DNA of 64,000 nt from Nitratireductor soli (lineage in GTDB: Bacteria > Pseudomonadota > Alphaproteobacteria > Rhizobiales > Rhizobiaceae): NCBI RefSeq assembly GCF_001050155.1, contig NZ_LFVY01000012.1, forward strand, positions 124,001 through 188,000, written 5' to 3'. Shown piece after piece: positions 42,696 through 54,804 of this stretch. Below the pieces are notes generated by a model. That model was not told the origin of the DNA, ran no database searches, and saw only the letters and a list, made by a program, of their open reading frames with translations. The first letter of the stretch is position 1; the number at the start of each line of letters is the position of its first letter. The position numbers and the translations under genes are program-made.

Positions 42696-44177
42696 CTAGT
42701 CGGCCCACCGCACCTCGGTCAGGTCATTGGCCTGGATCGGCGAGTTCTCCCACAGGCCCTGGAGCTGGGCGTCCCACACGCCGATCTTCGGTAATTGGAA
42801 CAGGAAGCCGTTCACCGCGTCCTCGGCGATGATCTTCTGCGCCGTCTTGTACAGTTCGATGCGCTTGGCGGGATCAGCCGTCGCCTCGAGCGTGTTCATC
42901 ACTTCCTTGAAGGCCGGGTTGTTGTAATCGAAGTAGTAGTCGTCGCGCGCGTAGATGTTGATGTCGTTCGGCTCGGTGTGCGAGATGATCGTCAGGTCGA
43001 AATCCTTGTTCTTGAACACCTGTTCCAGCCATTGCGCCCATTCGACCGGGATGATCTCCAGATTGATGCCCACCTGGCGCAACTGCGAGGCGACCACTTC
43101 ACCGCCCTGGCGCGCATAGGGTGGCGGCGGCAGCTTGAGCGTCGCCGTGAAGCCGTCCGGATAACCTGCCTCGGAAAGCAGCGCCTTGGCCTTTGCCGGA
43201 TCGTAGGGATAGGTGCCGGTCAGATCGACATAGGCCTCGTTGGCCGGCGAGAAATGCGTACCGATCGGCGTGCCGTAGCCCGAGCCGTTGCCGGCGACGA
43301 TTTCGTCGCGGTTCAGCGCATGGGCGATGGCCTGGCGCACCTTGATGTCGTTGAAGGGCTCTTTTCCGTTGTTGATCGACAGGAGGGTCTCGCCCTCCGT
43401 CGCGCCGATCTTGACGGTAAAGCGCGGGTCGCTCTCGATCTGCGCCAGCGCGTCGCCGGCGGGCATTTGCGGGAAGGCTTGCACGTCGCCCGATAAGAGC
43501 GCCGGAATGGCGGCGGCCGCGTCGGGGATGATGCGGAACTCCGCCTTGTCCAGCCCGGCCGCGTTACCCCAATAGTCGGGATTCTTCGTCAGCTTCACCG
43601 CCGAGCCCTTGGCCCAGCTGTCGAATTTGAACGGCCCGGTGCCGATCGGATTTTCCTTGTTGGCATCGGCCGTCTCCGGCGCCACCATCACCGCGTCGCC
43701 CCAGCCCATATTGTAGAGGAAGGAGCCCTGCGGCGCTTTCAGCGTCACTTTGACCGTGGCCGGATCGACCACCTCGACCGTGTCGATGGCGGTGAAAAGC
43801 TGTTTTTGCGCATTGGTCGAATCCTCGGCGCGCGCCCGGTCGAGCGAGAATTTCACATCCTCCGCGTCGAAGGCGCTGCCGTCATGGAATGTGACGCCCT
43901 TGTGCAGCTTGAACGTATAGACCTTGCCGTCGTCGGAAACGTCCCAGCTTTCGGCCAGCGACGGCACCACCTCGCCATTGCGGCCGACGCGCGTCAGCCC
44001 CTGGAAGACATTGGCGTAGACGATCTCGTCGATGGCGGCTGCGGCACTTGCGGTCGGGTCGAGATGCGGCGGCTCTAAGACGACCCCGACGACCAGGTCG
44101 GTGCGTGCGGCGAAGACTGCGGTGCCCGTTGCCAGCAACAGCGCCGCACCACCGATGATGGACTTTATCGTTTTCAT
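42696..44177 (-). CDS. ABC importer solute-binding protein, peptide/nickel family (SBP_bac_5)
   Basis: 493 residues. Signal peptide MKTIKSIIGGAALLLATGTAVFAAR; then TDLVVGVVLEPPHLDPTASAAAAIDEIVYANVFQGLTRVGRNGEVVPSLAESWDVSDDGKVYTFKLHKGVTFHDGSAFDAEDVKFSLDRA, the classical DppA/OppA start. This family binds peptides, nickel chelates, heme, opines or glutathione; the ligand is unresolved. The start is ATG 44177 after the RIME tandem. It should deliver its ligand to the permease pair below; the M20 hydrolase upstream suggests the imported solute is a peptide or N-acyl amino acid (inference). Confidence 0.9.
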   Translation of the reverse strand: MKTIKSIIGGAALLLATGTAVFAARTDLVVGVVLEPPHLDPTASAAAAIDEIVYANVFQGLTRVGRNGEVVPSLAESWDVSDDGKVYTFKLHKGVTFHDGSAFDAEDVKFSLDRARAEDSTNAQKQLFTAIDTVEVVDPATVKVTLKAPQGSFLYNMGWGDAVMVAPETADANKENPIGTGPFKFDSWAKGSAVKLTKNPDYWGNAAGLDKAEFRIIPDAAAAIPALLSGDVQAFPQMPAGDALAQIESDPRFTVKIGATEGETLLSINNGKEPFNDIKVRQAIAHALNRDEIVAGNGSGYGTPIGTHFSPANEAYVDLTGTYPYDPAKAKALLSEAGYPDGFTATLKLPPPPYARQGGEVVASQLRQVGINLEIIPVEWAQWLEQVFKNKDFDLTIISHTEPNDINIYARDDYYFDYNNPAFKEVMNTLEATADPAKRIELYKTAQKIIAEDAVNGFLFQLPKIGVWDAQLQGLWENSPIQANDLTEVRWAD

Positions 44178-44250
44178 TGGTCTCTCCCGGGAAGCCTCCG
44201 ATTTCGGAGGATTGAAGCGCGATTTCTCGCCTGAGTAAATCATTCGTCTT

Positions 44251-44362
44251 TAGCATTTTGCAGTCAGGTGGTTTCACCTGACGTCCGCACAAATGCGGAA
44301 ACTTAGCATTTTGCAGTCAGGTGGTTTCACCTGACGTCCGCACAAATGCGGAAAACAAGAAG
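44251..44362. repeat. Tandem pair of RIME-like half elements, copies D1 and D2
   Basis: Two nearly identical units of about 53 bases (44251-44303 and 44304-44356 onward), each TAGCATTTTGCAGTCAGG, the GGTGGTTTCACC palindrome, TGACGTCCGCAC and AAATGCGG. They stand head to tail, so a recent duplication is likely. They lie between the M20-type gene and the solute-binding protein gene, inside an otherwise coherent transport operon. Confidence 0.8.
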
Positions 44363-44373
44363 ATGGACCCGGT

Positions 44374-45657
44374 TCAGCCGGGCGGACTGGCTCCGCGCAA
44401 AAGCGCATCCAGGCTCATCGCCATGACGGTCGCCGACTGAACCATATCCTCGATGCCGATCCACTCGTCGGGCTGGTGCGCCAGGTCGAGAATGCCCGGT
44501 CCGTAGGCGACGCAATCGTGCAGATGGCCGATGCGGGCAATGTGCTTCTGGTCGTAGGTGCCGGGCGAGATGATGTATTCCGGCTCCTTGCCGAACACTT
44601 CGCGGATACCGGCGGCGATGGCCGTCGGCACCGGTGCATCGCGCTCGGTCATCAGCGGCAGGACCTCCATCAGGTCGCGCAGGGCGTAGTCGAACTTCGG
44701 CCGTTCCCGCTTCAGCCGCTCGAGAATGGCGACGACCTCGCCCTTTACCTCGGCCAGATCCTCCTCGATCAGGAAGCGCCGGTCGAGCACGAGGCGGCAG
44801 GAATCGGCGACATTGGGCGCCGGCAGGCCAGGAAAGAAATCCTCGGTCTGGCCGCCATGCACGGAGTTGAGGTTGAGCGTCGAGCGCCTTGCGCCTTCCG
44901 GCACCACCGGCATCTGCGTCTGCTTGCGGTCGAGCGCCGGGAACAGCTCTTCCTCGAAGGCGGTGAGCACCGCCCCCATGTGGCGGATCGCCGAATCGCC
45001 GAGGAACGGCATCGCCCCATGGGCGATCGCCCCATGCGTCTCGATCTCCGCCCACCAGACGCCGCGATGACCAAGGCAGATGCGGTCCTTGTTGAGCGGT
45101 TCGGGTATGATGACGTGATCGACACGCGGCTTCGAGAAGAAGCCCTGGCGCGCCAGGTAGGCGACGCCGCCGAAACCGCCCGATTCCTCGTCCGCCGTGC
45201 CGGAAATCTCGATGGCGCCCGGATAATCGGGATAGACCTCGATGAACGCCTCGGCTGCGATGATCGAGGCGGCAAGCCCGCCCTTCATGTCGCAGGCGCC
45301 ACGGCCGAAAACCTTGCCGTCGCGGACGATTCCGGCAAACGGATCGACCGTCCAGCCTTCGCCGGCCTCCACCACATCGATGTGCGAGTTGAAATGCACC
45401 GTTGCGCCGGGACCGCGCCCCTCGCGCCGTGCCACCATATTGGCGCGCGGATAGCGTTCCGAATCGCCGGGCGTGCCGGTGCCGCGGATCAGCTGTGTGG
45501 CGAAGCCGTGTCGCTTCAGCCTTGCGGCGATATACTCGGCACAAGGCGTATAGGCTTCGCCCGGCGGGTTCACGGTCGGGAAGCGGATGAGATCGGCGGT
45601 GAGGGCGACGAGGTCTTCGACGCGGCCGCGAACGGCTCGTGCAAGCTGGTCATTCAT
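44374..45657 (-). CDS. M20 family deacetylase/peptidase (ArgE/DapE-like)
   Basis: 427 residues. Metal-dependent amidohydrolase: first metal site VHFNSHIDVVEAGEGWTVDPF, then GRGACDMKGGLAAS, the catalytic Glu pair in SGTADEESGG, and a later His in GTYDQKHIARIGHLHDC. The family includes acetylornithine deacetylases, succinyl-DAP desuccinylases and carboxypeptidases. Here it is next to a peptide importer on the same strand, so its substrate is likely an imported peptide or N-acyl amino acid. ATG 45657 chosen; an upstream extension has no coding character. Confidence 0.87.
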   Translation of the reverse strand: MNDQLARAVRGRVEDLVALTADLIRFPTVNPPGEAYTPCAEYIAARLKRHGFATQLIRGTGTPGDSERYPRANMVARREGRGPGATVHFNSHIDVVEAGEGWTVDPFAGIVRDGKVFGRGACDMKGGLAASIIAAEAFIEVYPDYPGAIEISGTADEESGGFGGVAYLARQGFFSKPRVDHVIIPEPLNKDRICLGHRGVWWAEIETHGAIAHGAMPFLGDSAIRHMGAVLTAFEEELFPALDRKQTQMPVVPEGARRSTLNLNSVHGGQTEDFFPGLPAPNVADSCRLVLDRRFLIEEDLAEVKGEVVAILERLKRERPKFDYALRDLMEVLPLMTERDAPVPTAIAAGIREVFGKEPEYIISPGTYDQKHIARIGHLHDCVAYGPGILDLAHQPDEWIGIEDMVQSATVMAMSLDALLRGASPPG

Positions 45658-45843
45658 GGCATGCAATAGAGCGGGCGGCGGGCCGCTTTGCAAGATCGTC
45701 AACACGCGATTGTGAGTGTGCCAAACTTGCACCACTAGCCGGAGCATAGTTCACTGAGCACTGTTCATTTTAGGTTTTGTTATGATTTTCTCGTAACTTG
45801 AGTGGTGCGAGACGCAGATTCACCGACAGAGCGGGGGGCGCTC

Positions 45844-46275
45844 ATGAAAAGCTTTTTTTACGCCTTGGCGGTTGCCGGCTTGCTCTTGGCGGGCGGCGCT
45901 GCTGAAAGCGCGGCTGCCAACCTGGTTGCCCGGGTCAGTCTTTCCAAGCAGACGATGACGGTCACGCATCAAGGGCGCGTCCTGCATCGCTGGCGTGTTT
46001 CCACGGCGCGCCGCGGTTACGTGACGCCACGCGGCCAGTGGCGGCCCAAGCGCATGCATCGCATGTGGTACTCGCGCAAATACGACATGTCGCCGATGCC
46101 CTATTCGATCTTCTACCATGGCGGTTATGCGATCCACGGCACCAACGCCGTATCCAGGCTTGGCCGTCCGGCCTCGCATGGCTGCGTGCGGCTCGACACG
46201 GCCAACGCCGCGCGGCTTTATGCGCTGGTCCGCAAGATCGGCCCCGGCAACACGCGAATCATCGTCACGGATTGA
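45844..46275 (+). CDS. L,D-transpeptidase (YkuD domain)
   Basis: 143 residues with a signal peptide (MKSFFYALAVAGLLLAGGAAESAAA). The YkuD catalytic block is IHGTNAVSRLGRPASHGCVRLDTANAARLY, where the Cys of SHGCVR is the nucleophile and the first His helps it. It forms 3-3 peptide crosslinks in peptidoglycan or anchors proteins, in the periplasm. Short compared with proteins having LysM repeats, so it is a minimal member. The gene is convergent with lpxXL, 15 bases apart. Confidence 0.9.
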   Translation: MKSFFYALAVAGLLLAGGAAESAAANLVARVSLSKQTMTVTHQGRVLHRWRVSTARRGYVTPRGQWRPKRMHRMWYSRKYDMSPMPYSIFYHGGYAIHGTNAVSRLGRPASHGCVRLDTANAARLYALVRKIGPGNTRIIVTD

Positions 46276-46290
46276 ACGTCGGGACGCAGG

Positions 46291-47211
46291 CTACATCGCC
46301 CAGCGCTTGTGGAACCACATCCATTGGCCGGGGTCCTCGCGAACCCAGCCCTCGACGATGTCGTTCAGCATTTGCGCGCTCGCCGCGATGTCGATCGCGC
46401 CGCCCTCATTGCGCGGCAGGGTGATCTTGTCCTGGACCTCGAGCCGGTAGCGGCCGCCGGGCAGGCGGATGCAGCGCGCCGGATAGACATCGCACTCATA
46501 CTGGCGCGCCAGCTTCGGCAGAAGCGGATTGGTCAGGCATTGGCGGCCGAAGAACCGCGTGCGCACGCCTTTCTGGAACTTCTGGTCGACCAGCACCCCG
46601 ACATTGCCGCCATCGTCGAGCACGCGCGCCAATTGCAGCGCGGCCCCCGCCTGCGAGGGCACCAGGCCGCCCATCGCCCCACGCCGTGTCCGCAGGATGT
46701 AGTCGGCGACATACGGATTGTTGGGCGGGCGGAACAGCGAGGTGGTGGCCAGATCGAATTTCGATGCGGCGATCGGCAAAAACTCGAAATTGCCCAGATG
46801 CGCGGTGAAGAAGATGTGCGGTGTGCCTTTCTCCTCGCGCAGCCGCAGGAACACGTCGCGCCCCGACACTTCGACACGCCCCGGCGTGTCGCTCTCAGGG
46901 TCGAAGTCGAACAATTTGTCGAGGAAGACATATTCGGCGGCGAGCCGCGCCATGTTCGCCCACATGTCCGAGGCGATGGCCTCGATCTCGGCCTCCGATT
47001 TTTCCGGATAGGCGTGGCGCAGATTGCTGACGGCAAGCCTGTGCCGGCCGACCCATGGGCCGGCCTTCCGCGCGACCGTTTCGGCCAGATCGAGCGCCTT
47101 TTCCGGCGGCAGCTGGCGCAACAGGGTCAGGACGGCGATGACGAGCTTGCCGGTCAGCCAGTATTCGGCGGCTTTCAGCCGCCTGGCGAAACGAATGAGA
47201 AAGCGCTGCAT
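46291..47211 (-). CDS. lpxXL: Very-long-chain acyl transferase to lipid A (LpxXL)
   Basis: 306 residues of the LpxL/HtrB acyltransferase family. It transfers 27-hydroxyoctacosanoate (C28) from AcpXL to lipid A in rhizobia and Brucella. Motif: HLGNFE (H-x4-E) inside FFTAHLGNFEFLP, PPNNPYVADYILRTRRG, DGGNVGVLVDQKFQKGVRTRFFGRQ, and a final GWVREDPGQWMWFHKRW. N-terminal membrane segment about residues 19-35. Placement at the end of the acpXL set confirms LpxXL over the ordinary LpxL. Confidence 0.9.
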   Translation of the reverse strand: MQRFLIRFARRLKAAEYWLTGKLVIAVLTLLRQLPPEKALDLAETVARKAGPWVGRHRLAVSNLRHAYPEKSEAEIEAIASDMWANMARLAAEYVFLDKLFDFDPESDTPGRVEVSGRDVFLRLREEKGTPHIFFTAHLGNFEFLPIAASKFDLATTSLFRPPNNPYVADYILRTRRGAMGGLVPSQAGAALQLARVLDDGGNVGVLVDQKFQKGVRTRFFGRQCLTNPLLPKLARQYECDVYPARCIRLPGGRYRLEVQDKITLPRNEGGAIDIAASAQMLNDIVEGWVREDPGQWMWFHKRWAM

Positions 47212-47219
47212 CGCGCCGG

Positions 47220-48248
47220 TCAGCCGACGCGCAGGATGATCTTGCCGAACACGTCGCGGCCTTCCATGCGCGCCAGCGCCGTGTCGATGGCGTCGAACTC
47301 GACCACCGTGTCGATGACCGGCGAGACGAGGCCCGCCGCCATCTTCTGCATCGCGTCGGCCATGTTTTCCATGCGGCAGCCGAACGAACCGATGAGCCGC
47401 AATTGCTGCTGGAAAAGCTGCATCAGGTTCATGCTGGTCGAGACGCCGGAGGTCGAGCCGCAGGTGACGAGCCGCCCGCCGCGTTTCAGAGACAGCATCG
47501 AACCGGCCCAGGTGTCGGCGCCCACGTGCTCGAACACCACATCGACGCCACGCTTTTTGGTCAGCTTGCGCACCACGCCTTCGAAGCGGTCCTCGCGATA
47601 GTTGATGACGTGGTCGGCGCCGAGCGCCCTGGCTTTGTCGATCTTGTCGTTGGAGCCGACCGTGGTGATGACGGTGCAGCCCATCCGCTTGGCAAGCTGG
47701 ATCGCCGCCGAGCCGATGCCCGAGCCGCCGGCCTGCACGAGGATCGTCTCGCCGGGTTCGAGCTTCGCATTGTCGAACAGCATGTGTTCGACCGTGCCGA
47801 AGGTGACGGGCGCCACCGCCGCGCCGATTTCGTCGACACCGGGCGGGGCCGGCACCAGAAGGCGCGCCGGCAGGTTGATCTTTTCCTGGGCGAAGCCGTC
47901 GAGATGGAAGCCATGCACGCCGGAGACATGTTCGCACAGATTGTCGCGGCCCTCGCGGCAGGGGCGGCAAAGTCCGCAGGTGCGCGCGCCATAGATCGAC
48001 ACGAGCTGGCCGGGCAGGAGGTTGCCGACGCCCGCGCCGACGGCCTCCACTTCGCCGGAAGCCTCCGCCCCGACGACCAGCGGCATTTTCCGCTTGGCGA
48101 ACGCCATGCCGCGCCAGCCCCAGACATCGATATGGTTGAGCGCGACGGCGCGGATCTTCACCGTCACCTCGCCCTGGCCGGGCGGCGGCGGAGAAGGGAG
48201 ATCGACGGTTTCAAGCTGGCGATCCGCGACGAGTTGCAATGCGCGCAT
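47220..48248 (-). CDS. adh2XL: Zinc-binding dehydrogenase of the VLCFA cluster (Adh2XL)
   Basis: 342 residues of the zinc-type medium-chain dehydrogenase/reductase superfamily. Seen: structural zinc cysteine cluster (GARTCGLCRPCREGRDNLCEH), NADPH site LVQAGGSGIGSAAIQLAKRMGCTVITT, and the catalytic core HIDVWGWRGMAF...LVVGAEASGEVEAVG. In Rhizobium leguminosarum and Sinorhizobium meliloti the orthologue belongs to the acpXL-fabF2XL-fabF1XL-adh2XL-lpxXL set that makes the C28 acyl chain. It presumably acts as an enoyl or keto reductase on the ACP-bound chain; the exact step is inferred. Confidence 0.85.
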   Translation of the reverse strand: MRALQLVADRQLETVDLPSPPPPGQGEVTVKIRAVALNHIDVWGWRGMAFAKRKMPLVVGAEASGEVEAVGAGVGNLLPGQLVSIYGARTCGLCRPCREGRDNLCEHVSGVHGFHLDGFAQEKINLPARLLVPAPPGVDEIGAAVAPVTFGTVEHMLFDNAKLEPGETILVQAGGSGIGSAAIQLAKRMGCTVITTVGSNDKIDKARALGADHVINYREDRFEGVVRKLTKKRGVDVVFEHVGADTWAGSMLSLKRGGRLVTCGSTSGVSTSMNLMQLFQQQLRLIGSFGCRMENMADAMQKMAAGLVSPVIDTVVEFDAIDTALARMEGRDVFGKIILRVG

Positions 48249-48282
48249 GGGTTCAGGTTCCGTCAAGAGTGCGTTGTAGTTG

Positions 48283-48328
48283 GTGAATGGTGAATGGTGA
48301 GAATCTTGTCTTTCCATTCACCATTCAC
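48283..48328. repeat. 15-bp perfect inverted repeat between fabF1XL and adh2XL
   Basis: GTGAATGGTGAATGG (48283-48297) and its reverse complement (48314-48328) with a 16-base spacer. The arm is itself a tandem GTGAATGG. It sits in the gap just before the adh2XL start, inside the VLCFA cluster; role unknown. Confidence 0.55.
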
Positions 48329-48334
48329 GCTCTT

Positions 48335-49603
48335 TCATTCCGGTTCGCGCGCCATGACAAGGCAGGTGTTCTGGCCGCCAAAGCCGAAGGAATTCGACAG
48401 AACGGTGGAAACCTGCGCCTCGCGCTTCACATTCGGCACCACATCGAGCTCGATCGCCGGGTCCGGCGTGTCGTAATTGATCGTCGGCGGAAGGATGCCT
48501 TCGCGCATGGTCATCAGCGAGAAGACGGCTTCCACGGCGCCCGCCGCCGACAGCGTGTGGCCGATCATCGACTTGTTCGACGAGACCGGCACATCCTTGA
48601 TCCGCTCGCCGAACACGGTCGACAGCGACAGATGTTCCATCTTGTCGTTTTCCGGCGTCGAGGTGCCGTGCGCGTTGATGTAGTCGATCTCGCCTTCGGC
48701 CATGCCGGCATCCGACAGCGCGGCCCTGACGGCGGCGATGGCTGGCGAACCGTCAGGTTTGGAGCGGGTGCGGTGGAAATCGTCCGATTTCTCGCCGCAG
48801 CCGCGCATGATGCCCAAAATCTCGGCGCCGCGGGCCAGCGCGCTTTCCAGCGATTCCAGCACCAGCGCGCCGGCGCCCTCGGCCAGGACGAAGCCGCTGC
48901 GGTCCTTGGAGAAGGGGCGCGAGGCTTTTTCCGGCACGTCGTTGTGCGTCGTCAGCGCCGAAAGCAGCGAAAAGCGGATCAGTGCCTCCGCCGTTGCCGA
49001 GCCGTCGGCGCCGATGGCCAGCGCCCGGTCGCATTCGCCGCGGCGGATCGCCTCGATGCCGAGCTGGATCGCCGTCGCGCCCGAGGCGCACGCCGTCGAC
49101 AGCGTGATCGGCAGGCCACGCGTGCCGTATTGCTCGGCCAGCCGGTCGGCGATGGTGGCGAACTGGCTTTCGTCGAACATCCGCATGGCGTGCGCCGTGC
49201 GCGCCGCCTCGATCAGGCTCTTGTTGCCATTATGGTCGCGCGCGCCGGCATAGAGCGACAGGCGATGCCGCCAGTCCAGCTCGACGGGCGGAGCTGCCAG
49301 AAACAGCGGTCCGGCGAAATCGTCCGCCGGCAGGCCCGATTGCCCGACCGCTTCGGCGGCGGCCAGATTGGCAAGCTCGAAGGTCAGCGCGCTGGCGCCG
49401 TCATTGCTCGACGGCAGGAAATCGACCGTGCCGGCAATGGTCGTCGCCAGGTGATCGACGGGAAAGCGCGTGATCGGGTGAATGCCGGAGCGGCCACCAA
49501 TCAGCGCGTTCCAATTGTCCTCGCGGCCCTGGCCGAGCGATGTGACGACGCCCATGCCGGTGACGGCCACAACGGGTCTTGCAAAACTGTCGGTCGTTTT
49601 CAC
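48335..49603 (-). CDS. fabF1XL: Beta-ketoacyl-ACP synthase of the VLCFA cluster (FabF1XL)
   Basis: 422 residues of the KAS II family with all catalytic residues: Cys172 in LSTACASG, His312 in YINAHGTSTPEND and Lys344/His349 in SSNKSMIGHTL. Start PVVAVTGMGVVTSLGQGREDNWNALIGGRSG is canonical. It elongates AcpXL-bound chains toward C28. It stands between fabF2XL and adh2XL on the same strand, 39 bases after fabF2XL. The neighbour FabF2XL is catalytically degenerate, so FabF1XL is probably the active half of a pair. Confidence 0.92.
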   Translation of the reverse strand: MKTTDSFARPVVAVTGMGVVTSLGQGREDNWNALIGGRSGIHPITRFPVDHLATTIAGTVDFLPSSNDGASALTFELANLAAAEAVGQSGLPADDFAGPLFLAAPPVELDWRHRLSLYAGARDHNGNKSLIEAARTAHAMRMFDESQFATIADRLAEQYGTRGLPITLSTACASGATAIQLGIEAIRRGECDRALAIGADGSATAEALIRFSLLSALTTHNDVPEKASRPFSKDRSGFVLAEGAGALVLESLESALARGAEILGIMRGCGEKSDDFHRTRSKPDGSPAIAAVRAALSDAGMAEGEIDYINAHGTSTPENDKMEHLSLSTVFGERIKDVPVSSNKSMIGHTLSAAGAVEAVFSLMTMREGILPPTINYDTPDPAIELDVVPNVKREAQVSTVLSNSFGFGGQNTCLVMAREPE

Positions 49604-49642
49604 CAGATCGATCTCTTATCCTGCGGGCCAGAAGGCAACGGC

Positions 49643-50830
49643 CTAAGCCTTGGTGACGAGCCCCATTCCTTCAAAACAATGATAGCCGATCGCCGTCGCC
49701 AGCACAGCCTCCGGCACGCCGTCGAACGCCGCTTCCTTGTCCGTGTCGAAAGCGGGATAGGCCTTGCCGTGCCGCACGGCCAGCGCGGCCAGCGCCACGG
49801 CGAAGGGAAACTGCGCTTCCTTCATATGCCCGGTCAGCGAGGAAAAGCCGCGCGGGACCAGCCTGCCGTCCCGGCTCAGCGCCTGCTCTTCGGCCTGCGT
49901 CGCCGCATGCGCCCCCGAGGCACCCGAAACCGCCAGCAGCGGCCCCTCGGGCAGGGACATCCGGTCGAGCATGGCGCCGATGCCGTCGGCAAGCGGTTCG
50001 CTGTTGCGTCGGCTGCGGCGCGAGACGACGGGACCGATGCTGGCATAGGCTTCGCGGCCGCGCCGTTGCGCATGCTCGCGCGATTCCAGGACGAGGAACG
50101 CTGCGCCCGAACCCGTGATGACGCCACCGCCTTGCGAAGCCGCGCGCTGCCAGACCGGCTTCCAGTCGTCGCGATGCAGGAAGCCCGCCAGTTCATAGGC
50201 AAGCAGCATATCGGAATGTTCGGTCTGAAAGGCGCCGCCGACCAGCAGATGCGAGGATTGGCCGGCGCGAATGCGCGCGGCCGCCGTCTCGATCGCCGAA
50301 ACGCCGGAACCTTCCTCGCCCATGAAGGTGCGCGAGGAGCCTGTCACCTTGTGAACGATGGAGATGTTGCCGGCCAGAAGATTGGAAAGCTGCGCCAGGA
50401 ACAGCGTCGGCCGCAGTTCCGTTGTGAGTTTCTCGTTGAGCAGCACATCATGGTCGTTGCGCGTCAGCGAGGCGTCGAGGATCGCCTGGTCGACGGCTTC
50501 GTCGCGCTCGCCGCCGCCGGCCGCCACCACCAGGTCCATCGCCGCGCACAGGGCCTCGTCGCCCTTCATCCCGGCATCGTCCAGCGCCAGTCCGGCCGCA
50601 TAGGTGCCTAGGCGCTGCCAGGTCTCCATCTGCCGCTGGTCGCCGCGCCGCGGAATCTGCTGGCTCCAGTCGATCTCCGGCAGGGGATGGATCGTGTAGG
50701 GCGCGAAGCGCTCCCGGTCGAGAACCGGCGCCGGGGAAGCCGCGGTCAGCGCCCGCCAATGGGCATCCGCGCCTTCGCCAAGCGAGGAGACAATGCCCAT
50801 CCCGGTGATGACGACGTCGCGCGGGCTCAT
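49643..50830 (-). CDS. fabF2XL: Degenerate ketosynthase-like protein of the VLCFA cluster (FabF2XL)
   Basis: 395 residues of thiolase fold (SPRDVVITGMGIVSSLGEGADAHWRALTAASPAP is the KS start; MDLVVAAGGGERDEAVD; GGAFQTEHSDM), but the active site is altered. Where KAS enzymes have ACASG, this protein has GEEGSG, so the catalytic Cys is replaced by Glu173; the first catalytic His region reads AVSGASGAHAAT, without the NxHGT motif. The second GH is kept (LTGHMKEA) but the preceding Lys is not seen. The protein may act like a chain-length factor with FabF1XL (inference). ATG 50830; ATG 50884 gives an unlikely extension. Confidence 0.85.
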   Translation of the reverse strand: MSPRDVVITGMGIVSSLGEGADAHWRALTAASPAPVLDRERFAPYTIHPLPEIDWSQQIPRRGDQRQMETWQRLGTYAAGLALDDAGMKGDEALCAAMDLVVAAGGGERDEAVDQAILDASLTRNDHDVLLNEKLTTELRPTLFLAQLSNLLAGNISIVHKVTGSSRTFMGEEGSGVSAIETAAARIRAGQSSHLLVGGAFQTEHSDMLLAYELAGFLHRDDWKPVWQRAASQGGGVITGSGAAFLVLESREHAQRRGREAYASIGPVVSRRSRRNSEPLADGIGAMLDRMSLPEGPLLAVSGASGAHAATQAEEQALSRDGRLVPRGFSSLTGHMKEAQFPFAVALAALAVRHGKAYPAFDTDKEAAFDGVPEAVLATAIGYHCFEGMGLVTKA

Positions 50831-50857
50831 ACTATCCTCATCAACTCTGCTTCTGGT

Positions 50858-50899
50858 GGTCTGACCCAAACAGACGGGTACCATCTGTCAGGGAAGATC
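50858..50899 (+). repeat. GGTCTGACC dyad repeat, copy 2
   Basis: Starts GGTCTGACC, then AAACAGACGG, and TACCATCTGT and continues into GGGAAGATCGCCCCC. It shares the core with copy 1 at 9738-9841 (opposite orientation). The palindrome ACAGA(C)GG...CCATCTGT is less perfect here. It fills the 90-base gap between acpXL and fabF2XL, exactly where fabZ is expected in related genomes. Confidence 0.6.
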
Positions 50900-50921
50900 G
50901 CCCCCAAGGACGCATTCGGAC

Positions 50922-51200
50922 TCAGCCGGCCTTGGCGGCGACCAGATCGTCGATCTTGGCGCACAGGTTCTTCATGACGAAATACTCCTCCGTCGAAGCC
51001 TTGCCGTCATTGACCTCCTGGGTCCATTTCTCGAGCGGCACCTTGATGCCGAATTCCTTGTCTATGGCAAAGACGATGTCGAGGAAGTCCAGGCTGTCGA
51101 TGCCCAGGTCGTCGATGGTGTGGCTTTCGGGCGTAATCTTCTCGCGGTCGATCTCGCTCGTCTCGGCGATGATGTCGGCAACCTTGTCGAATGTCGTCAC
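50922..51200 (-). CDS. acpXL: Acyl carrier protein for very-long-chain fatty acids (AcpXL)
   Basis: 92 residues. The 4'-phosphopantetheine attachment Ser36 is in [12 protein letters not shown], and the start [28 protein letters not shown] plus the extended C-terminal [16 protein letters not shown] are characteristic of AcpXL. The C28 hydroxy acid is assembled on this carrier for lipid A. Start is GTG at 51200, with GAGG upstream; the frame opens to 51356 but the extension looks random. It is the head of the acpXL-fabF2XL-fabF1XL-adh2XL-lpxXL block. Confidence 0.93.
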
Positions 51201-51300
51201 TTGGGGGCCCTCGGTCTGGGGAGATTCTTTTGAATCGAATGATTGTGGGGTCTCTAATCGGTTTTCACCGGCAGGAAAAGGGGTGTTCCTTGTTCGCCGG

Positions 51301-51396
51301 AGCGCCATGCGTCCATTCGGACGCCCAAAGGACGCTCTGTTCTTGTTGTCCCGCATTTATGCGGACGCCAGGCAATCGCCTGACCACAAAACGCTA
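51301..51396. repeat. RIME-like palindromic repeat, copy E (diverged full)
   Basis: About 96 bases with both halves: AGCGCCATGCGTCCATTCGG, GGACGCTCTGTTC, CCGCATTTATGCGG, CCAGGCAATCGCCTG palindromes, ending AAAACGCT. Several bases differ from copies A-D. It is in the gap between acpXL and the histidine phosphatase gene, and just upstream of acpXL's promoter region. Confidence 0.75.
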
Positions 51397-51407
51397 TCAG
51401 CCAGCGA

Positions 51408-51959
51408 TCAGTTGAAGGTGATGCGCCCGGCGGCACGCAGATTGTCGCTTCCTCGTGACAAAATAATGGCCTCGCCCTCACGCGCCGAGCCGCCGATCAT
51501 CGCCTCGATGATCGCCAGATGGGTCACCATGACGAGATTGCCGGAGCCGGTATAGGCGTCAATCCTGGCCAGGATTTCCGCCTTCTGTGCTTCCGCGGCT
51601 GCGTCATCGGGCGGGATGTCGAGCGCATCGAAGAGTTCCACCAACTCCGCGCCGAAGGCCATGACGGCCGTGTCGCGGGCGCGGCAATAGCGGCTGGTCA
51701 ACACTTTCTCGACGGGGGCGGCGCGTGCGTCGTACAGGGCGCCGATACGGCGTGCCTGCTGCCGCCCGCGATCCGACAGGTTGCGCTGCGTGCCGCATTT
51801 CTCGATGTCGAAATTCGCCGGGTCCCCGGTGCCCGGCGCGTTTGCATGCCGCATCAGCACCACTTGTCCGCCGTTGCGCAGCAATGCCCAGCCGGCTTCT
51901 GTCGCCTGGGCGGGAAGGGTGAATAAAAACAACGCAATGGCGATGAACATACGAAACAT
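51408..51959 (-). CDS. Secreted histidine phosphatase family protein
   Basis: 183 residues with a signal peptide (MFRMFIAIALFLFTLPAQATE). The phosphoglycerate-mutase-like fold shows the RHG-type motif as VVLMRHANAPGTGDP (catalytic His) and the second His in VMVTHLAIIEAM. Acid-phosphatase-type enzymes of this sort work in the periplasm. The second arginine is seen in TSRYCRARDTAV. Substrate unknown. The 365 bases upstream hold only a repeat element (52070-52188) and no gene. Confidence 0.82.
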   Translation of the reverse strand: MFRMFIAIALFLFTLPAQATEAGWALLRNGGQVVLMRHANAPGTGDPANFDIEKCGTQRNLSDRGRQQARRIGALYDARAAPVEKVLTSRYCRARDTAVMAFGAELVELFDALDIPPDDAAAEAQKAEILARIDAYTGSGNLVMVTHLAIIEAMIGGSAREGEAIILSRGSDNLRAAGRITFN

Positions 51960-52069
51960 GCGGCAATCCTCAAATAATGCTTTCTAGCATATAGGCCGTC
52001 GCACGCATCATGAAAGAAGCGGGCATCGTACACACACGATGCTCTACACCCCTTTGCATTGACCTTGTG

Positions 52070-52188
52070 CGTGGTTCGACAAGCTCACCATGAGGGCGAT
52101 TGGGCTTGGCAGGGAGCCTGGCTCCGAGACGTGGCAGATGGGCGTTGCAACCATAGATCTCCCCTCATGGTGAGCTTGTCGAACCACG
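52070..52188. repeat. 119-bp inverted-repeat element, copy 2
   Basis: 27-bp arms (52070-52096 and 52162-52188) beginning CGTGGTTCGACAAGCTCACC as in copy 1 at 30223. The core also matches (TTGGCAGGGAGCCTG, CCGAGACG, GGCAGATGGGCG). Homology extends to the right over CAACGCTGTTGCC and GATCAA and onward to a GAAAATCGATACCGATTTCG palindrome near 52281. Gap between 51960 and 52324; no gene here. Confidence 0.8.
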
Positions 52189-52324
52189 CACAACGCTGTT
52201 GCCGCACGATCAAACGCGATCGAGGCCGCAACGTTGTGGCGGAAGGACCTGGATCATTGGATCGGCGGTTGCTGTCCAGCGAAAATCGATACCGATTTCG
52301 CCGGTGATGGGTTAAGGCGGACCC

Positions 52325-53269
52325 ATGTCCCCGCTTGTCGAAACAGTTTCCTTCGTTTTTGGTCTTGTCGCTTTCGGTTACGCCGCCGGCTGGAGCGGGT
52401 TGCTGAAACCGCAGATCGGCGACGCGCTGACCGACTTCGCCGTCTCCATCGCCGTGCCGCTCCTGCTTTTCCGCACCATGGCCAGCGCCGGCTTCGACGG
52501 CAGCATTCCCTGGCAATTGTGGATCGCCTATTTCACCGCCGTCGCCATCGCCTGGATCGCCGGACAGTTGACGATCACGCGCCTTTTCGGCCGCGACGCG
52601 CGCGCCGGCGTTGTTGCCGGCTTGTCCACCAGTTTCTCCAACCTGGTGCTGCTCGGCATTCCGTTCATGCTCGGCGTCTACGGTCAAAGCGGCTTCGAGG
52701 TGCTGTCGCTGATCGTCTCGATCCATTTGCCGATCATGATGGGCGTGTCGATCCTGCTGTTCGCCCTGCTCGGGCGCAGCGGCGGCGGGGGGCTTGCCGG
52801 CCTGGCGCGCGAATTCCTGACGAACCTGTTTTCCAACCCGCTGATCATCGGCATCATCGCGGGTCTCGCCTGGCGCATTTCCGGCCTCGAAATGCCGGCG
52901 CTCGGCACCCGGTTCGTCGATGCGCTGGCCAATGTGGCGGGTCCGACGGCATTGTTCGCCATGGGGCTCGGGCTGCGCAAATTCGGCATCTCCGGCGATA
53001 TTCGCCCGGCCATCGTCATTGCCGGGCTGAAACTTTTCCTCATGCCGGCCGTTGCCCTGGCGATGGCGAAAATCCTTGGCCTGCCGCTGCTCAGCGCCCA
53101 GGTGGCCGTGGCGGCGGCGTCCATGCCGTCCGGGGTCAATCCCTATCTGATCGCCAACCGCTTCGGCACCGGACAGGCGCTTGCCAGCAATTCGATGACG
53201 ATCGGCACGCTGTTTGCCGTCGCCACCACGGCCTTCTGGCTGTCGGCCGTCCATTGGGCCTATCCGTAA
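52325..53269 (+). CDS. AEC (auxin efflux carrier) family transporter
   Basis: 314 residues with about ten membrane segments. The family start (MSPLVETVSFVFGLVAFGYAAGWSGLLKPQIGDALTDFAVSIAVPLLLFRTM) and the second-half motif (ITRLFGRDARAGVVAGLSTSFSNLVLLGIPFMLGVYGQSG) match AEC/MdcF-like carriers; the end PSGVNPYLIANRFGTGQALASNSMTIGTLFAVAT carries the conserved P-S-G-x-N. These carriers move organic anions such as malonate or malate. The substrate is not clear; downstream is an aldehyde dehydrogenase. Confidence 0.86.
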   Translation: MSPLVETVSFVFGLVAFGYAAGWSGLLKPQIGDALTDFAVSIAVPLLLFRTMASAGFDGSIPWQLWIAYFTAVAIAWIAGQLTITRLFGRDARAGVVAGLSTSFSNLVLLGIPFMLGVYGQSGFEVLSLIVSIHLPIMMGVSILLFALLGRSGGGGLAGLAREFLTNLFSNPLIIGIIAGLAWRISGLEMPALGTRFVDALANVAGPTALFAMGLGLRKFGISGDIRPAIVIAGLKLFLMPAVALAMAKILGLPLLSAQVAVAAASMPSGVNPYLIANRFGTGQALASNSMTIGTLFAVATTAFWLSAVHWAYP

Positions 53270-53346
53270 AGCAACCCACTCCCTAATCTGCCGATCCGAC
53301 AGTGCAGGGGCGTGCAGAAATTCCGCACCGATACGAGGAGAAACCG

Positions 53347-54804
53347 ATGCTTCAGAAAACCAGCCACTTCATGCGCCAGGCGAATTTCATCGACGGCGCC
53401 TGGGTCGGCGCCGATTCAGGCAAGTCCATCGACGTCGTCAATCCGGCGACGGGCTTGACGATCGGCACCGTGCCGCGCTGCGGCCGGGCGGAGACCCGGC
53501 GCGCCATCGAGGCTGCGGAACGGGCCTTTCGGTCGTGGAAGAAGACGTCGGCCGACCACCGCGCCAAACTGCTGCGCAAGCTGCATGACGCGATCATGGA
53601 CAATCAGGACGCGCTGGCCGAACTGCTGACGCTGGAACAGGGCAAATCCTTCGCCGAGGCCAAGGGCGAGGTGGGCATGTCGGCCGCCTATGTGCTGTGG
53701 TACGCCGAGGAGGGCAGGCGGGTCTATGGCGATGTCGTGCCGTCGCCCTGGGCCGACCGCCGCATCCTGGTGACCAAGGAGCCGGTCGGCGTCATCGGCG
53801 CCGTGACGCCCTGGAATTTTCCCTCCTCCATGCTCGCCCGCAAGCTCGGGCCGGCGCTGGCCACCGGCTGCACGGCGGTCGCCAAACCCGCTTCGCAAAC
53901 ACCCTTCTCCGGTCTTGCCTGGGGTGTCCTGTGCGAAGAAGTCGGCTTTCCCAGGGGCGTGGTGAACATCGTCACCGGTTCGGCCGGCGAAATCGGCGAT
54001 GAGCTGTGCGAAAACCCGCTGGTGCGCAAGCTGACCTTCACCGGCTCGACCGAGATCGGCAAGATGCTGATCCAGAAGACCGCCGGCACGGTCAAGAAGG
54101 TTTCGATGGAGCTCGGCGGCAATGCGCCGTTCCTGGTCTTCGACGATGCCGATCTCGACCGCGCGGTGGAAGGCGCCATGGCCGCCAAGTACCGCAATTC
54201 CGGCCAGACCTGCGTTTGCACCAACCGCTTCTTCGTCCAGGCAGGCATTTATGACCGTTTCGTCGAAAGGCTGGCCGCCGAGGCCGACAAGCTCCGCGTC
54301 GGCCCCGGCATGGACGAGGGCACCCAGCAGGGGCCCTTGATCGATGACAAGGCGGTCGAGAAGGTCGAGGAACTGATCGGCGATGCCAGGGAGAAGGGCG
54401 GCAAGGTGGTGGCGGGCGGCGCGCGCCACGCGCTCGGTGGCTCCTTCTTCCAGCCGACGGTCATCTCCGGCGCCACGCCCGCCATGCGCTTCATGCAGGA
54501 GGAGATTTTCGGCCCCGTCGCGCCGGTCTTTCGCTTCGAAACCGAGGAGGAGGCGATCAGCCTTGCCAACGACACGGTGTTCGGCCTCGCCTGCTATTTC
54601 TACACCGGCGATCTCGGCCGCGCTTTCCGCGTCATGGAAGGGCTGAAATATGGCCTGGTCGGCGTCAACGAAGGCATCATCACCACGGTCGAGGCACCCT
54701 TCGGCGGCCTGAAGGAATCGGGCATCGGCAAGGAAGGCGGGCACCAGGGCATCGAGGACTATCTCGACACGAAATATGTCTGCATCGGCGGGCTTGGGCT
54801 TTAG
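53347..54804 (+). CDS. gabD: Succinate-semialdehyde dehydrogenase-type aldehyde dehydrogenase
   Basis: 485 residues with an intact ALDH active site: Glu255 in SMELGGNAPF and Cys289 in RNSGQTCVCTNRF, 34 residues apart as usual. NAD(P) site residues VTPWNFPSSMLARKLGPALATGC are present. Closest in type to GabD (succinate semialdehyde, GABA breakdown), though other semialdehydes are possible. ATG 53347 follows a GAGGAG site; the upstream in-frame ATG adds an unlikely leader. Stands 78 bases after the AEC transporter gene. Confidence 0.87.
   Translation: MLQKTSHFMRQANFIDGAWVGADSGKSIDVVNPATGLTIGTVPRCGRAETRRAIEAAERAFRSWKKTSADHRAKLLRKLHDAIMDNQDALAELLTLEQGKSFAEAKGEVGMSAAYVLWYAEEGRRVYGDVVPSPWADRRILVTKEPVGVIGAVTPWNFPSSMLARKLGPALATGCTAVAKPASQTPFSGLAWGVLCEEVGFPRGVVNIVTGSAGEIGDELCENPLVRKLTFTGSTEIGKMLIQKTAGTVKKVSMELGGNAPFLVFDDADLDRAVEGAMAAKYRNSGQTCVCTNRFFVQAGIYDRFVERLAAEADKLRVGPGMDEGTQQGPLIDDKAVEKVEELIGDAREKGGKVVAGGARHALGGSFFQPTVISGATPAMRFMQEEIFGPVAPVFRFETEEEAISLANDTVFGLACYFYTGDLGRAFRVMEGLKYGLVGVNEGIITTVEAPFGGLKESGIGKEGGHQGIEDYLDTKYVCIGGLGL

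Follow-up and report, generated by a model that had tools for sequence, protein, structure and literature searches.

Indirect evidence for FabF2XL as a chain-length-factor-like pseudoenzyme that partners FabF1XL in making the lipid A fatty acid

The analysed window, a stretch of 64,000 nucleotides from Nitratireductor soli, carries on its minus strand a gene cluster in the order acpXL-fabF2XL-fabF1XL-adhXL-lpxXL, as established by open reading frame calls and profile matches. This cluster serves the synthesis and transfer of the very-long-chain fatty acid (VLCFA) of lipid A. The gene under study, fabF2XL (49643..50830, minus strand), runs from an ATG at 50830 to a stop codon that ends at 49643 and encodes 395 amino acids; a second in-frame ATG lies upstream at 50884, but the match of the family model begins at residue 2 of the 395-residue form. 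The product is a member of the NCBIfam family NF005084 (PRK06519, "beta-ketoacyl-ACP synthase"; 596.9 bits, curated cut-off 320), and among named relatives the nearest are N. pacificus, N. indicus and other Nitratireductor, whose FabF2XL proteins share 82-89% identity with it. The neighbouring fabF1XL (48335..49603, minus strand) starts with GTG and encodes an intact ketosynthase of 422 residues (NF005076, 735.4 bits) with C172, H312, K344 and H349 present. FabF1XL matches both Pfam ketosynthase halves, whereas FabF2XL matches just the N-terminal PF00109; a Pfam profile search of FabF2XL gave no match to the C-terminal ketosynthase domain PF02801.

The remaining genes of the cluster lie on the same strand. 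AdhXL (47220..48248), a zinc-type dehydrogenase with an inferred start, matches PF00107 and PF08240 and occupies the same place in the S. meliloti gene order, and LpxXL (46291..47211, start likewise inferred) is the lipid A acyltransferase (NF005120, 469.7 bits). AcpXL (50922..51200), the acyl carrier protein of the pathway, comprises 92 residues from a GTG start that was inferred from the family model (NF005079, 182.9 bits). Its longest open reading frame has an extension of 52 residues (51200-51356) outside the family model, and the GTG at 51200 yields the usual 92 residues. The interval between acpXL and fabF2XL (50831-50921), the place of fabZXL in S. meliloti, contains no fabZXL. With S. 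meliloti FabZXL as query, clear orthologs (79-81% identical) were found in three of 12 genomes of the family; the other nine, the window's own included, gave weak matches only (32-39%), presumably to the housekeeping FabZ. The absence may already be known, as a table in the available part of PMC7663294 uses the S. meliloti fabZXL in place of one from M. loti. No RNA families were detected in 44000-53500. The promoter scan returned 0 promoters, and the terminator scan 5 terminators against 4.1 expected.

The catalytic residues of FabF2XL were evaluated by two kinds of alignment, phmmer searches against PDB chains and MAFFT alignment with E. coli FabF, and were counted over 197 distinct FabF2XL/FabF1XL pairs from 233 loci, identical copies and two short pairs (L084, L136) having been dropped. 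The best PDB chain for FabF2XL by phmmer was 2gfv, the C163Q mutant of E. coli FabF. Both alignments placed Glu172-Glu173 of FabF2XL (50312..50317, minus strand, codons checked) on FabF positions 162-163, which are Ala-Cys in FabF. Glu stands at the position of the nucleophile C163 in 196 of 197 FabF2XL sequences and Asp in the remaining one, and the preceding A162 position is Glu in all 197. His303 of the NxHGT motif is missing throughout the family (197/197; a gap in two alignments, Gly in a third), and the window protein has Gly303-Gly306 (GASG; 49913..49924, minus strand, codons checked) in its place. At the Lys335 position Gly, Ser, Ala, Gln, Thr or Pro was found in every member. Of the residues expected in an active KAS II/FabF enzyme, FabF2XL thus lacks Cys163, His303 and Lys335 and has kept the second His, His340, which is present in 172 of 197 sequences and corresponds to His335 in the window (49826..49828, minus strand), a retention that the sequence-only reading did not point out. 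FabF1XL has retained the complete set: its nucleophile, Cys172 in the window (49088..49090, minus strand, codon checked), is Cys in 196 of 197 sequences, with one unreadable base in the last, and the catalytic His, Lys and His are each present in 197/197. The sequence-only reading had claimed that Glu173 replaces the catalytic Cys, that the NxHGT motif is lost and that the FabF1XL next door is intact, and these counts bear out all three observations.

A Cys elsewhere in FabF2XL at the nucleophile site would have spoken against this assignment, and the alignment contained none. The protein of the window contains two Cys, C95 and C385; across the family, Cys reaches at most 86 of 197 members in any one column, and 37 of 197 have no Cys whatsoever, so that another Cys was rejected as the nucleophile. 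Chance or decay, with FabF2XL as a pseudogene, was likewise rejected: dN/dS values against five relatives were 0.09-0.21 for FabF2XL and 0.07-0.23 for FabF1XL, which shows that both genes are under purifying selection.

The distribution of the two genes was surveyed with the curated cut-offs; at an E-value of 0.001 all 150 genomes of the order matched through their other ketosynthases. FabF2XL exceeded its cut-off in 38 of the 150 genomes, and the same 38, name by name, hold FabF1XL; neither protein exceeded its cut-off in the other 112. In a survey of the phylum, FabF2XL was found in 35 of 398 genomes, 34 of them of the same order and one of another order in the class. FabF1XL lies directly downstream on the same strand for 208 of 213 FabF2XL copies (gaps of -16 to 364 bases, with a median of 22), a number that refers to loci, near-copies included, and not to independent events. 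Of the five copies without an adjoining FabF1XL, four (L105, L156, L157, L158) are truncated where the contig or locus stops. The fifth is the only true exception to adjacency: genome G046 carries a lone FabF2XL (L141:2519-3811) and a lone FabF1XL (L182:957-2240), together with a normal pair on a third contig. The two genes also duplicate as one unit, since four neighbourhoods (L175-L178) show the order acpXL-fabZXL-F2-F1-adh-F2-F1 and another (L149) contains two F2-F1 units.

Conservation along the chain was compared among 30 FabF, 197 FabF2XL, 197 FabF1XL, nine CLF (chain length factor) and nine KS-alpha sequences, and percentiles were determined among the 25-residue windows of each family. 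The CLF and KS-alpha sets are small and stem from plasmid records; the former comprises six annotated CLFs and three proteins (from Azospirillum, Priestia and Lactobacillus) assigned by position and missing Cys, and two Streptomyces partners (L150, L152) reading Ala-Asp at 162-163 were excluded from it. The segment corresponding to FabF 126-150 is the top-conserved stretch of FabF2XL, and it was picked once this peak was known, with the FabF, CLF and KS-alpha controls run later. Its mean conservation was 0.89 in FabF (88th percentile), 0.89 in FabF2XL (95th) and 0.68 in CLFs (92nd), against 0.44 in FabF1XL (15th) and 0.50 in KS-alpha (0.5th). The narrower segment 134-147 gave percentiles of 89 for FabF, 98 for FabF2XL, 15 for FabF1XL, 98 for CLF and 19 for KS-alpha, and nearly every row aligned over the segment without gaps. 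Gly144 does not vary in FabF, FabF2XL or CLFs and is lost in FabF1XL and KS-alpha. The opposite distribution was seen for the catalytic segments 299-307, 331-345 and 394-404, with conservation of 0.89, 0.91 and 0.97 in FabF1XL versus 0.57, 0.58 and 0.69 in FabF2XL, and the strand 151-172 did not separate the partners (0.76 and 0.86).

FabF segment 126-150 presumably reaches the acyl cavity of the partner in FabF dimers (through Phe133 of the other subunit). We looked for literature support for the position of this segment in ketosynthase dimers and found none; the known KS-alpha/CLF pairs provide the comparison with an empirical control that is independent of that assumption. The available text of PMC8358021 describes the cavity of KS-CLF complexes as lined by both subunits. 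The simplest reading of the complementary pattern is that each subunit would retain just its half of one composite active site, FabF1XL the chemistry and FabF2XL the wall. The top-conserved residues 140-160 of FabF2XL (FabF 130-150; 50351..50413, minus strand) would then face FabF1XL. This comparison of complementary conservation is cheap and could be applied to further adjacent ketosynthase pairs.

FabF2XL shares several features with the CLFs, the KS-beta subunits of type II polyketide synthases (actinorhodin CLF, PDB 1tqy chain B; Iga12; AntE; ApeC), which have a ketosynthase fold and have likewise lost the nucleophile. All nine classical CLFs carry an acidic residue (Glu or Asp) at 162 followed by Gln, His or Arg at 163, where FabF2XL has Glu-Glu, and ketosynthases, Ser-Ala-Cys types included, differ from both in reading Ala/Gly-Cys. 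As with CLFs, FabF2XL is encoded beside an intact ketosynthase and co-occurs with it, and the division of conservation between FabF2XL and FabF1XL is that between CLF and KS-alpha, unlike homodimeric FabF. There are also differences. The replacement of the nucleophile in CLFs is classically Gln, and none of those examined has the Glu of FabF2XL; Lys335 is kept and His340 mostly lost in CLFs, whereas the reverse holds for FabF2XL; and the pathway is lipid A fatty-acid synthesis rather than polyketide synthesis. A sequence profile of FabF2XL reached 1tqy_B at E 9e-8, and its best PDB sequence matches were FabF. Compared with FabF (KAS II), FabF2XL keeps the segment 129-150, including N140 and G144, but is without the nucleophile, the first His, the Lys and a PF02801 match. 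Between FabF positions 98 and 134 it has 47-62 residues versus 37 in FabF and CLFs, and this longer loop lies near what we take to be the position of the CLF gate residues. A second parallel is the cispentacin pair AmcF-AmcG, likened here from its published description, which also combines a ketosynthase with a partner ("cyclization factor") devoid of functional motifs. It differs in performing a single elongation with cyclisation chemistry in another pathway. FabF1XL scored 236.9 bits with the AmcF model, below the cut-off of 325, and several FabF/KAS models matched it as well. According to the available part of PMC10698177, the AmcF-AmcG heterodimer has been shown experimentally.

Together, these data make it highly probable, as judged from sequence comparison, that FabF2XL is a non-catalytic, catalytically dead ketosynthase partner of the intact FabF1XL, and they support, indirectly, a CLF-like role for this pseudoenzyme in making the lipid A fatty acid. 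The sequence-only reading had suggested that the two proteins may work as a KS/CLF-like heterodimer, and had named decarboxylating ketosynthases as the other enzymes in which the nucleophile is replaced in this way. The KS/CLF-like pair is the best-supported reading because of the identical occurrence, the adjacency, the pairwise duplication, the CLF-like motif of an acidic plus a non-Cys residue, and the complementary conservation, which resembles that of KS-alpha and CLF. The loss of the first His and the Lys, besides that of the nucleophile, weakens the decarboxylating alternative. In KSQ domains the nucleophile is replaced by an acidic or amide residue, Gln with both His kept. A KSQ-like FabF2XL would decarboxylate malonyl-AcpXL to acetyl-AcpXL or to a priming nucleophile, and the replaced nucleophile as well as the His340 equivalent of most members agree with such a function. 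Known decarboxylating ketosynthases retain, to our knowledge, both His; FabF2XL has Glu in place of Gln, lacks the first His, has Lys335 replaced throughout and is poorly conserved in its catalytic segments. The VLCFA pathway, moreover, lengthens chains that already exist and does not require a new primer. We consider this function very improbable.

It is, in our view, just as improbable that FabF2XL uses Glu172-Glu173 to catalyse another reaction altogether, such as hydrolysis or chain release. The invariance of Glu172 and near-invariance of Glu173 in 197 sequences would fit an active residue pair, but conservation is lacking in the remainder of the site, namely the first His, the Lys and the gating loop, and the acidic residue at 162 in all nine classical CLFs argues for a structural or interface role. 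Somewhat less remote, yet still unlikely, is the idea that FabF2XL forms its own homodimer, a pseudoenzyme or scaffold for binding AcpXL or for gathering the enzymes of the pathway, and shares no active site with FabF1XL. This explanation, too, is compatible with the lost catalytic residues, with the co-occurrence and with the one genome that has an unpaired FabF2XL copy (L141). It leaves unexplained why FabF1XL is variable in exactly the segment that FabF2XL conserves, which is the pattern of KS-alpha and CLF and not of homodimeric FabF, and it explains neither adjacency nor pairwise duplication.

For the KS/CLF-like pair, the evolution of both genes suggests one pair with a single active site, similar to the chain-length partners of polyketide synthesis, and as far as the evidence goes there is indirect support for FabF2XL working like a CLF. 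In the proposed mechanism, FabF1XL alone would bind the growing acyl chain, through Cys172, and would carry out its condensation with malonyl units, probably on AcpXL. The partner FabF2XL, which has the acidic Glu172-Glu173 at the place of its own nucleophile, would supply the other wall of the acyl cavity with its residues from about 129 to 160. We infer a physical heterodimer with a composite cavity. In helping this cavity to accept a chain of C26-C30, FabF2XL might influence the final length. The earlier suggestion of a chain length fixed at C28 by the pair finds a more guarded answer: a chain-length role of FabF2XL is plausible, at about even odds.

Trees, structure models and coevolution were examined as further sources of evidence. 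In a tree of 78 proteins, FabF2XL and FabF1XL each formed one group with a support of 100. Trees placed FabF2XL beside the CLFs with SH-aLRT values of 73-79, which fall short of firm support, also when the active-site columns and segment 126-150 were removed, and a union of FabF2XL and FabF1XL in one clade was not rejected (p-AU 0.436). FabF2XL may have arisen from CLFs, from FabF1XL or independently of both. Single-chain AlphaFold2 models from shallow alignments (42 and 41 sequences) were poor, with mean pLDDT values of 71.4 and 59.1, and the fold contributes little. Confidence was low around the presumed interface of FabF2XL, which carries no weight here because the FabF1XL control scored worse. 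Foldseek returned 6kxd_A, of the ishigamide KS/CLF complex (E 1.5e-17), ahead of E. coli FabF (2.0e-17), values that do not discriminate between CLF and FabF. With about 97 effective sequences, coevolution scores between the proteins rose to z 9.0, compared with 11.3 within proteins, and did not stand out from noise. The top 50 were not enriched in FabF 100-172 (3 versus 5.9 expected for FabF2XL, 8 versus 9.6 for FabF1XL), a region whose conserved segment could hardly contribute since nearly invariant columns were excluded.

In the parts of the genetic papers available, an insertion in fabF2XL of A. fabrum leaves lipid A devoid of VLCFA, a defect that a plasmid-borne copy of the gene corrects in part (PMC11901934); the same source reports fabF2XL, fabF1XL, adh and lpxXL as one transcript, so that the insertion is possibly polar on fabF1XL. 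Mutants of Bradyrhizobium ORS278 in acpXL, fabZXL, fabF1XL or fabF2XL proved unobtainable (PMC5613085), and S. meliloti mutants in fabF1XL and fabF2XL show a growth disadvantage (PMC5539429). The available part of PMC7663294 lists both proteins as beta-ketoacyl-ACP synthases. The term "chain length factor" was not found in the accessible portions of the literature naming fabF2XL with acpXL. A search combining it with 27-hydroxyoctacosanoic acid found no literature, and one combining it with lipid A and VLCFA found only work on cockroaches. Mutant studies in S. meliloti or R. leguminosarum beyond the literature covered may have noted the missing Cys of FabF2XL.

The question on which this pair bears is how elongation in rhizobia and related bacteria ends at C26-C30, a length well past that of the usual FabF products. 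The annotation of the two genes is that of ordinary 3-oxoacyl-ACP synthases, and if one partner is dead, single-gene biochemistry on either would mislead. In that case chain length would become directly testable through swaps or mutations of FabF2XL, and the KS/CLF principle would extend beyond polyketide synthesis to a lipid pathway of the outer membrane. Where a neighbourhood has two F2-F1 units, each pair may elongate towards a product of its own. On a Bradyrhizobium plasmid, a fabF2XL-fabF1XL pair (L153:5965-8486) stands beside a gene for a SAM-dependent methyltransferase, with neither acpXL nor lpxXL in the stretch shown, and a methyltransferase-like open reading frame also precedes the lone FabF1XL of L182.
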